Shown piece by piece: positions 14,915 through 20,616 of a DNA stretch of 64,000 bases. The notes under the pieces are model-generated. The model did not search any database. It saw only the letters and a list, made by a program, of their open reading frames with translations, and had not been told where the DNA came from. The DNA comes from an uncultured Candidatus Saccharibacteria bacterium (GTDB taxonomy: Bacteria > Patescibacteriota > Saccharimonadia > Saccharimonadales > Saccharimonadaceae), in assembly GCA_946530965.1 (NCBI GenBank), contig CAMNAK010000001.1:434001-498000 (forward strand), written 5' to 3'. A program made the translations under genes and the position numbers. The first letter of the stretch is position 1. Each line of letters starts with the position of its first letter.

Positions 14915-15081
14915 TGGGCGGTATAGGGTACGTCCTTTTGCTCCGCAAAAGAACATCGTCGGGCGTCGCCTCTTATTTGAAGAATAAAATTGTCTAGATA
15001 GGTATTTTCTTCTTGCGAAGCGCTATTATCGATAGAGCGAGCAAGAAAAAATGCCTAGATAGGCAATTTTAACTTCAAATA
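14915..15081 (-). mobile_element. Short element between tRNA-Val and a copy of its 3' end
   Basis: TGGGCGGTATAGG at 14915-14927 repeats the 3' end of tRNA-Val (15085-15097), 170 bases apart. Next to the copy are a hairpin (CTTTTGC TCC GCAAAAG, 14935-14951) and the 20-mer ACATCGTCGGGCGTCGCCTC (14953-14972), shared with the tRNA-Leu element at 20340-20526. The rest is AT-rich, with an inverted repeat (ATTTGAAG..AAAATTG near the tRNA, and its complement at about 14974-14998) and the tRNA terminator GCCTATCTAGGC plus T6. Inference: a non-autonomous element or scar using the tRNA 3' end as attachment site. Confidence 0.55.
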
Positions 15082-15158
15082 TGGTGGGCGGTATAGGATT
15101 CGAACCTATGACCTCTTCTACGTCAAAGAAACGCTCTAGCCAACTGAGCTAACCGCCC
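15082..15158 (-). tRNA. tRNA-Val (anticodon GAC)
   Basis: Cloverleaf with acceptor GGGCGGT/ACCGCCC, D arm GCTC/GAGC, anticodon arm TTTCT-TTGACGT-AGAAG, T arm ATAGG-TTCGAAT-CCTAT and encoded CCA. Confidence 0.95.
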
Positions 15159-18225: not shown

Positions 18226-18405
18226 ATTAATCCTTTTTTGTTTTTATTTTTGTTTCGACTTTTTGACCTTGTCTTACAAAAATTTTAGCATAAGAAGATT
18301 GGATTGTCTAGTAGGATTTATATATCTATATTCTAGTACATAGGCAGCAATCGATTTTTTGAATCTATATGCATATGCTTTATAATCTAAAGCAAGGAGA
18401 TAACC

Positions 18406-19101
18406 ATGTCAGAAAAAATGCCATCATCAAAACCAGAACAAGAACAGCCCGAAGAAATCGAGCGAAGCGAACAAGAAAATCGCTCTCTTGGCCAGAAAAT
18501 CTTAGGCTTCTTTAATGGTCTACGGAGCAAACGAAGGAATGAAGCCCAGCCAGCCCAGACGGAAGAAACCGATAATTCTGAAGCCGAAACGGCGCCCATT
18601 CCAGAAGAAGCAACCGAAGCCCCACAGCAAAAAGCAGCCGAACAGTATACTTATGCACCAGAGAGCGAAGCTGTAATTCCAAAGATGTTTCTTAAAAGAG
18701 CTTTCGAAGAATATCAGCACGCCTTACAAGAAATTGCCGAAAAAGGTGACGAAGCTACGCCGGAAGACATGACAAGACTAAAAGAAATTAAGGACAAAAT
18801 CACTCGCTCACAGATCGATTACGCCGAACACCTTCTACCAGTTGAAGTTATGCAAGATTTTCTAGGCTGTTTTTATACCAAATCGCAAAAACTCGGTGAA
18901 CCACCAGTCTTTGATAAACGCAAATCTTTCGTCGCGCCATTCTTAGTTCAGGCAGCCAATGGCACCCTCGACGCCGAAAAGTTACAAGCAGAGTTAGATA
19001 GAGAAAACACGAGTGATGGCCTCACGAAAGAAGAACGCACAGAAATCTGGGAATCCGTCGAGCCTTACGCGCAACTCCTGCTAGATAGAAAGAAAAAGTA
19101 A
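18406..19101 (+). CDS. Acidic orphan protein with basic amphipathic patch
   Basis: 231 residues. Acidic, proline/glutamate-rich disordered N-terminus interrupted by an amphipathic basic patch (LGQKILGFFNGLRSKRR), then a helical C-terminal half (residues 90-231). The layout of an acidic head with a GKxxGxxxxFFxG-like patch resembles the WDWF-repeat protein at 7368, though the repeats are absent. TATAAT and AAGGAG lie before the ATG. No family recognised; cytoplasmic by sequence. Possibly peripheral to the membrane through the patch. Confidence 0.65.
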   Translation: MSEKMPSSKPEQEQPEEIERSEQENRSLGQKILGFFNGLRSKRRNEAQPAQTEETDNSEAETAPIPEEATEAPQQKAAEQYTYAPESEAVIPKMFLKRAFEEYQHALQEIAEKGDEATPEDMTRLKEIKDKITRSQIDYAEHLLPVEVMQDFLGCFYTKSQKLGEPPVFDKRKSFVAPFLVQAANGTLDAEKLQAELDRENTSDGLTKEERTEIWESVEPYAQLLLDRKKK

Positions 19102-19181
19102 TCTGCTTTTTGTTCTTGGTGCGCTTTCCTAAATAACTTATATATCGTACCGATGAGGCTATTTGTGGTATTATGCAACTA

Positions 19182-19994
19182 ATGGAAGACATGGATTTAA
19201 TTAAACGTTTGTCCGATTTTGATTTAAAGGCAAGACTCGGTTTGAATGTTGATGATTTTGAAGATTATCAAAATTATAGATTAGTTTATAGCAGTACAAT
19301 TGGCGATGCTTGGTATAACTACATAACTAATATTCAATGCTCGAATGAAGATGGATTCGAAAAGATTATCGATGATGGCGCATTGAGACTGCAAAGGGTT
19401 GGGCGAAACTTGAGTGTTAGCCTATTGCCGACTATGCCTGAACTTTATGAAAACCGAGATAAGTATTTCAATGAGAAATTTGATTTAGTTTCTAATATAG
19501 TGTGGCAGGTTTTTGACTCTTTTGATAAGATTGATGACATTGAGTCAAATTGTCCGTATAAAATTGAATTGGTTAAAACCGAGAATATGGATGAATTTGC
19601 CGATGCTCTAATTGAGGCTTATCGCACTGGCGATTCAGATGATCCGTATGGTGATTTGGATCCAGCTTATCGCGATGCTTATGCGAATTACGTGAATAAT
19701 AAGGAAGGATTCAATGACGACTTCTTTATTATTAAAGCCAATGGTGAAATAGTTGGCATTACGCGTGGTGCGTACGATAGAGAGTTTTATGGCATATACG
19801 GTATTGCGATTAATATTAAACATCGAGCTAAGGGTATCGGAACAGAGGTACTCAAAATGCAACTTCGAGATTGTTGGGATAAGGGCCTAAAAATGGCCTT
19901 TCTAGAGACAGAAGTTGGTTTTTATCCAGAGAAACTCTATAGAAAAATTGGTTTTAAAGATGTCTGCATAAGATATATTTACGCAAAGAAGTAA
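19182..19994 (+). CDS. GNAT-family N-acetyltransferase
   Basis: About 270 residues from the ATG at 19182 (TATTAT ends seven bases before it; an ATG at 19173 overlaps the -10 box). The C-terminal half carries the GNAT fold: FFIIKANGEIVGITRG, GIYGIAINIKHRAKGIGTEVLKMQL with the acetyl-CoA loop HRAKGIG, and FYPEKLYRKIGFKDV. The N-terminal 120 residues are unassigned. Codon use is clearly more AT-rich than in neighbours (many TTA, GAT, AAT), which suggests later acquisition; it lies near the tRNA-Leu element. Substrate unknown. Confidence 0.8.
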   Translation: MEDMDLIKRLSDFDLKARLGLNVDDFEDYQNYRLVYSSTIGDAWYNYITNIQCSNEDGFEKIIDDGALRLQRVGRNLSVSLLPTMPELYENRDKYFNEKFDLVSNIVWQVFDSFDKIDDIESNCPYKIELVKTENMDEFADALIEAYRTGDSDDPYGDLDPAYRDAYANYVNNKEGFNDDFFIIKANGEIVGITRGAYDREFYGIYGIAINIKHRAKGIGTEVLKMQLRDCWDKGLKMAFLETEVGFYPEKLYRKIGFKDVCIRYIYAKK

Positions 19995-19997
19995 ACA

Positions 19998-20026
19998 AAT
20001 CCCCGCTCTTAAGAGCGGGGATTTTG
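19998..20026 (+). terminator. Terminator after the GNAT gene
   Basis: A 26-base perfect palindrome AATCCCCGCTCTT/AAGAGCGGGGATT followed by TTTT. A run of nine G (20030-20038) follows. Confidence 0.85.
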
Positions 20027-20039
20027 CTAGGGGGGGGGT

Positions 20040-20339
20040 GTTCCGGTTAGTTATAATTCACCCCAGTTGTTTTGCGATTTTGACATCTACTGCGAGTTTG
20101 ACTTTGAAGTCTGGCGCGACCTTCTCCATTTTCTCGCGCTGCTCGTAAAAATGCGCAAGCATATTTTCAAGATCGCATGGGCATACAATACGGCGAGCGG
20201 CAGGACGAATCAGGCGCGCCCTGTTAAATACCTCGTTCCAGTGGCTAAAAACCAAGCGACTTTACAAGCTAAAAAAGAGGCGGCTCGAACCGCTCCTCAA
20301 CAGATCAAAAAGACCTCAAAGAGGACTTAGTTTCAGTGC
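20040..20339. other. Gene-free stretch, possibly decayed sequence
   Basis: Two overlapping 65- and 87-codon frames on opposite strands have no ribosome site and no recognised family. The minus frame (20058-20255) ends VAPDFKVKLAVDVKIAKQLG and looks protein-like, so a decayed gene is possible. GAGGCGGCTCGAACCGCTCCTC and GACCTCAAAGAGGACTTAG form small stems near 20278-20330. Confidence 0.3.
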
Positions 20340-20526
20340 GGTGCGCCCGACTAGACAGCTGGCCGAATAAATTTGGCCAACATTGTGGGGCGTCGCCTCG
20401 GAAAATCCGAAGCGCACGCGCTTCTCTTTTTCTCTCGGCTCCTACCACAACCGAACTACGTTCTCGTCTAGGTCGGGGCTATACCAGGACAAAAAAATAA
20501 TGCCTTTCGGCATTGTTTTCTTGTCC
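20340..20526 (-). mobile_element. Short element between tRNA-Leu(GAG) and a copy of its 3' end
   Basis: GGTGCGCCCGACTAGAC at 20340-20356 is an exact 17-base copy of the tRNA-Leu 3' end (20528-20544), 188 bases apart. A hairpin (TGGCC...GGCCA, 20360-20379) and ACATTGTGGGGCGTCGCCTC (20380-20399) follow, matching the motif of the tRNA-Val element in 18 of 20 positions and at nearly the same distance (23 versus 25 bases). A degenerate inverted copy of the same tRNA end (GTCTAGGTCGGGGC) lies at about 20467-20480. The tRNA terminator AATGCCTTTCGGCATT (20499-20514) is at the tRNA side. No protein gene fits inside. Confidence 0.6.
20499..20514 (-). terminator. Terminator of tRNA-Leu(GAG)
   Basis: AATGCC/GGCATT stem with a four-base loop followed by ATTTTTTT on the minus strand, nested in a GGACAA/TTGTCC pairing. 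Confidence 0.75.
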
Positions 20527-20616
20527 TGGTGCGCCCGACTAGACTCGAACTAGCACAGCTCTAAAATGGCCACTACCACCTCAAGGTAGCGTGTCTACCA
20601 ATTCCACCACGGGCGC
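20527..20616 (-). tRNA. tRNA-Leu (anticodon GAG)
   Basis: Class II tRNA with acceptor GCGCCCG/CGGGCGC, anticodon arm CTACC-TTGAGGT-GGTAG, a long variable arm, T arm GCTAG-TTCGAGT-CTAGT and encoded CCA. Confidence 0.94.

Follow-up and report, generated by a model that had tools for sequence, protein, structure and literature searches.

The integrative elements of tRNA genes insert at the tRNA 3' end, restore the tRNA and leave its end duplicated as attL and attR. The element described here, behind a leucine tRNA gene in a small gut-dwelling Saccharibacterium, is similar in these respects, but it is 188 bp long and gene-free, its body is folded, and a single family occupies 14 tRNA species with a near-constant 18-nt boundary. 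Tycheposons of Prochlorococcus are likewise tRNA-associated mobile DNA in small genomes; they are kilobases long and carry genes and their own recombinase, whereas the present element is far shorter and gene-free. In the integron attC site the palindromic structure is conserved rather than the sequence, and mismatches distinguish the strands (PMC4792948). Our element resembles integron cassettes in structure and asymmetry only (a conserved fold, strand-distinguishing mismatches and tandem arrays behind a fixed target) and differs in the lack of genes and in the tRNA-tail target; no IntI was seen, and the sole PF00589 protein is Xer-like. The attP hairpin of CTX-phi, with dif as the target, is recombined by the host Xer (PMC3089051). 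Here too inverted and direct copies of the site lie about 90-100 nt apart and pair into an attachment stem, and the host is the candidate source of the enzyme, but the target is a tRNA instead of dif and the element is not a phage. Like REP sequences and MITEs (PMC3733652), the element is short, non-coding, hairpin-rich and dispersed, and its hairpin P3 also occurs alone elsewhere, but it differs from them in the tRNA-specific duplication, the absence of growth within genomes and the lack of a visible partner transposase. No description of such elements was found in open papers (subscription papers and preprints were outside the search), and the family is apparently undescribed.

The window, the whole stretch of 64,000 nucleotides that was analysed (C1:434001-498000), belongs to a 997-kb Saccharibacteria genome in three contigs and contains the target tRNA-Leu(GAG) gene at 20527-20616 on the minus strand (ARAGORN). 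The exact 17-base repeat GGTGCGCCCGACTAGAC reported in an earlier note on this DNA was confirmed at 20340-20356 and 20528-20544, with no third site in the window at up to three mismatches (0.05 expected by chance). It represents the 3' end of the tRNA; the full duplicated unit has 18 nt (20527-20544), corresponding to tRNA nt 59-76 from the T-loop to CCA. The two attachment-like copies bracket a 170-bp insert, and the displaced tail (20339-20356, minus strand) is identical to the tRNA tail at 17/18 positions, the last base alone being altered (CCA to CCG). Along the tRNA strand, CCA is followed immediately by an element-borne terminator-like hairpin, detected as an inverted repeat (20487-20526), by P1', a degenerate inverted copy of the tRNA tail and the 5' strand of a closing stem (20466-20486), by three hairpins, and by the displaced tail as the 3' strand of this stem. 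The hairpins are P2 (20453-20463; GAAC-GTA-GTTC with a GNA triloop), the long P3 (20383-20451), with its invariant GGAGCCGAG/GAGGCGACG double tandem-GA internal loops, and P4 (20357-20382). Of the other features in the earlier note, the TGGCC/GGCCA hairpin is present at 20361-20382 and the degenerate inverted tRNA end at about 20466-20486; the motif at 20380-20399 exists as well, not as a stand-alone feature but as half of the long P3 hairpin, which recurs across the bacterial family. On the other side of the displaced tail, two genes (18406-19994, plus strand) encode a 231-aa protein without a Pfam match and a GNAT acetyltransferase. The segment holding them (about 18365-20339) departs from the G035 locus, which is 94% identical apart from it; the AT-rich GNAT gene, also described earlier, has no counterpart at the G035 locus and is variable cargo beside the element. 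We consider it likely that the unit of about 188 bp, composed of terminator, P1', P2, P3, P4 and tail, is non-autonomous mobile DNA inserted precisely at the tRNA-Leu(GAG) 3' end.

The insertion was detected by comparison with related genomes, the comparison genomes being mostly metagenome assemblies. In G034 and G004, tRNA-Leu(GAG) directly abuts the end of a large serine recombinase (LSR) gene and the element is absent. In the window a C-terminal remnant of the same LSR with a single frameshift, an older occupant that marks the empty site (20196-20359, plus strand, by tblastn and junction alignment; 71-77% identical to two LSRs), follows the displaced tail, with the element in between, and its last residues, CARLDS, are encoded within that tail. 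The site has therefore changed from tail-LSR to tail-element-tail-LSR, demonstrating precise insertion with an 18-nt duplication. Occupancy is patchy, with the element in 3 of about 28 readable Leu(GAG) loci of the genus and an assembly gap in a fourth locus. Many loci have a second, original-type terminator after the displaced copy, several carry an older truncated tandem copy farther out, and decayed distal copies were detected; some elements with decayed tails may be relics. The tRNA-Tyr and tRNA-Glu(UUC) loci were dropped as clean empty-site pairs because they carry further changes, and Leu(GAG) alone was used as proof. As in tRNA-integrating elements, a direct repeat of the tRNA 3' end surrounds the insert and an empty site is found in relatives. 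An integrase-encoding form was not found: 188 bp is too short for a gene and no cargo-bearing form occurs in 50 loci, so that the element is non-autonomous at most.

The element body matches further places in the same genome. Every tRNA gene of the genome was checked, and the same layout was found 3' of tRNA-Val(UAC), Gly(CCC), Gly(UCC) and Ala(CGC), with the motif about 125 nt and the displaced copy about 170 nt downstream. The genome thus has five elements, on Leu, Val, Gly and Ala tRNAs, together with remnants (the damaged copy at tRNA-Val(GAC) and a tRNA-Tyr remnant). Among relatives, the pattern was detected in 29/120, nearly all of the same genus, the named records being gut and rumen Candidatus Saccharibacteria; 50 of the 77 distinct matches are no more than 100 nt from a tRNA end, and this family covers 14 tRNA species. 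In most measurable loci the displaced copy and the tRNA agree exactly for 18 nt (nt 59-76), in a few for 19 or 20. Phage and plasmid collections contained no DNA similar to the element, and a phage or plasmid origin was rejected, the one match of the pattern in a viral contig being chance-like. We attributed to chance the matches in unrelated phyla (Brevibacterium, Microcella and others), which lay in unrelated GC-rich sequence.

Another hairpin family, B, is present in three tandem copies at Ser(GGA) and two at Ser(CGA), with its core also behind both Gln tRNAs. At both serine tRNAs the tail duplication is likewise 18 nt, which makes the boundary a property of the insertion process rather than of a single hairpin. 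Family B was located in the same genome at C2:131400-131905, C2:150850-151177, C1:210909-211050 and C1:339950-340134, and one copy was seen behind tRNA-Arg in G027. Family C consists of palindromes of about 105 bp in which a terminator is duplicated in inverted orientation, beginning immediately behind the tRNA CCA (window 15035-15082, L113, L114, L117, L123, L126); one of them replaced half of the tRNA-Val(GAC) element. The element-borne terminators after CCA (L055 to L100 and others) commonly have a left A-tract and a right T-tract arm, as if bidirectional.

Near-identical elements in dissimilar surroundings demonstrate horizontal movement. Two tRNA-Tyr elements (L150 and L181) are identical at 157/161 positions and their tRNAs at 72/76, with no homology detected in the adjacent 1.4-kb flanks and 67-73% identity of genes elsewhere on the loci; for L058 and L073 the element is 96% identical and the flank 73.5%. 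In G027 a Glu-type element lies behind tRNA-Lys (169/175 identical, flanks without homology) and retains its Glu tail. The Glu and Lys tails share TCACCA, suggesting that strand exchange probably takes place at the CCA end. The nearest relative of an element is on the same tRNA in 31/50 cases (shuffle mean 4.7, maximum 15) and in the same genome in 0/50. By sequence comparison, the elements are tRNA-specific lineages moving between genomes, with the target rarely changed.

Two other ways of spreading were considered, both improbable. The elements could be REP/MITE-like palindromes distributed by a transposase of the Y1/RAYT type with no more than a preference for tRNA ends. P3 also occurs alone and off tRNAs in other genera: its model matches 119/246 genomes and 35/61 genera of the bacterial family, in a second genus again tRNA-linked (Tyr, Leu) and in several other genera stand-alone. 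P3 has GTAG at its start and CGACG at its end, reminiscent of the GTAG/CGTC tags of REPs (PMC3733652), a likeness of the ends only. However, amplification within genomes was not seen, given the 0/50 grouping by genome, the 18-nt tRNA duplication argues against such an origin, and a Y1 transposase is absent from the genome and present in only 4/45 of the genus. A solitary weak P3 hairpin was found upstream of tRNA-Ile(GAU) (C1:529162-529235), and a similar one upstream of a tRNA-Asn promoter in L082.

The spread could instead be passive, with no dedicated site-specific reaction; natural transformation would carry the insert, together with homologous recombination across the tRNA gene, which is conserved. 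We regard this as equally doubtful. It is consistent with the tRNA-specific lineages and with the variable genes that the same sites carry in 94-96% identical genomes; G011 and G035 have different small genes at the 3' flanks of tRNA-Leu, Tyr, Glu(UUC) and Gly(CCC). Passive spread leaves unexplained, however, the constant 18-nt boundary common to two hairpin families, the jump to tRNA-Lys and the first arrival on so many tRNAs. At the tRNA flanks we also noted genes absent from 94% identical relatives, for a 476-aa protein without a Pfam match (C1:275835-277460, tRNA-Tyr) and for a 94-aa protein with a weak DUF1737 match (C1:429249-429648, tRNA-Glu UUC). Another inverted duplication at a tRNA gene was observed in G027 (L220, about 18520-18660), where a partial tRNA-Lys 5' duplicate and an inverted fragment lie just upstream of the intact tRNA-Lys.

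All members have a common four-helix fold, in which the displaced tail pairs with the inverted tail P1' and closes P1 around P2 (GAAC...GTTC), P3 and P4, and in all of them P3 has the two invariant tandem-GA mismatches. Covariation in P1 and P3 was above 500/500 shuffles and every slid control. P1' scored 17.1 against its own tRNA and 9.9 against other tRNAs (p 1e-9), and where the displaced tail has drifted P1' follows it in several cases (L005, L066, L093), not in all. This strong covariation, together with stable predicted RNA folds (mean z -4.65), would speak for a structured non-coding RNA, either a tRNA 3' trailer or an independent small RNA, with the displaced tRNA end as its closing stem. 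The opposed bases across the stems point the other way, comprising 1833 Watson-Crick pairs, 28 G:T and 23 A:C (p = 0.58 for equality), whereas G:T to A:C was 271:0 in the tRNAs of the same loci (Fisher p 2e-21) and 29:8 in the terminators that the elements carry (Fisher p 0.026). Since G:T equals A:C among the mismatches, the fold is kept as DNA and not as RNA. Some G:U does occur in three columns of P3 whose 5' base is fixed, despite the overall symmetric wobble test. When the two strands were compared as whole folds, the top strand is slightly more stable and the G:U share is alike on both. P2 has GNA triloops in 37/50 and P4 in 20/23 triloops, and among P3 loops a two-base type prevails. 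GNA triloops and two-base loops are favoured in DNA hairpins. Further against an RNA, the tail remains identical to the tRNA as P1' drifts, the terminator insulates the element, most orthologous loci lack it, it moves horizontally, and Rfam gave no match at gathering thresholds. We judge an RNA to be slightly less probable still than either form of spread considered above.

The reading of the locus as an integrated element, already proposed in the earlier note, is supported by the filled and empty sites, the patchy occupancy, the displaced second terminator and the near-identical copies in unrelated flanks. The note had set against integration a single structured RNA closed by the tRNA-like end; one fold closed by this end is indeed present, with covariation, but its mismatches have no wobble preference, and a fold maintained at the DNA level does not refute integration. 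From the tRNA-Val(GAC) copy in the window (14915-15158, minus strand) it had been argued that only the end by the displaced copy is conserved. That copy is damaged, retaining the motif at 14961-14972 and the displaced tail, with its left half, P1' to P3, replaced by a terminator palindrome, and at the same locus of the sister genome G011 (L070) it is intact; the conservation therefore far exceeds the displaced-copy end. To interpret that end as a recombinase-binding arm does not go far enough, since conservation extends over the entire body (inverted tail, P2, P3, P4).

The genome encodes one tyrosine recombinase (PF00589), a 310-aa housekeeping Xer-like protein, and two LSRs; element occupancy follows no recombinase family tested, Xer and LSR included. 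LSR genes of the genus end inside the tails of tRNA-Leu(GAG), Gln(CUG), Ala(UGC), Ala(GGC) and Arg(UCU), indicating that tRNA-tail-targeting LSRs exist in the genus. Such tail-ending genes were recorded at L280, L281, L282, L283 and L284, and in the genome of the window at C1:266385-268055 and C2:79765-81333. At L281 the gene of a further LSR contains a tail-like sequence that is read through, which suggests a putative attachment core in the coding end. Host Xer and the tRNA-targeting LSRs are the only candidates seen for the mobilising enzyme. A retro-origin, with the tails as cDNA copied by a reverse transcriptase over 18 nt of tRNA before m1A58, would account for the exact match to nt 59-76, but was rejected as hardly credible, reverse transcriptase (PF00078) being absent from the genome and present in only 7/45 of the genus, and the m1A58 methyltransferase PF08704 having no match.

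For the mobile element we propose that the unit would be excised and re-integrated by strand exchange at a specific site in the tRNA tail, which probably lies close to CCA; the recombinase would be provided in trans. The tRNA-sense strand would be folded as single-stranded DNA, analogous to the attC site of integrons or the attachment hairpin of CTX-phi, and the matched 18-nt tail would preserve the tRNA and determine the target. Based on these precedents (attC, and CTX-phi with host Xer) and on the anatomy of the element, we give the folded single strand somewhat less than an even chance, within the mobile-element reading.

More tentatively, and on balance unlikely in our estimate, the tRNA 3' ends of Saccharibacteria may be integron-like landing platforms, where gene-free cassettes of folded single-stranded DNA are placed in order behind CCA by a trans-acting recombinase, the 18-nt tail matching the cassette to the tRNA. 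Patescibacteria have tiny genomes and few recognised mobile elements. If true, a gene-free, moving family that distinguishes tRNAs and has a complex DNA fold would be a mobile element near the minimum size, and its loci would be concrete sites to test the recombination of folded single-stranded DNA beyond integrons and filamentous phages. The tRNA 3' flanks would also be marked as spots of gene exchange in these bacteria.
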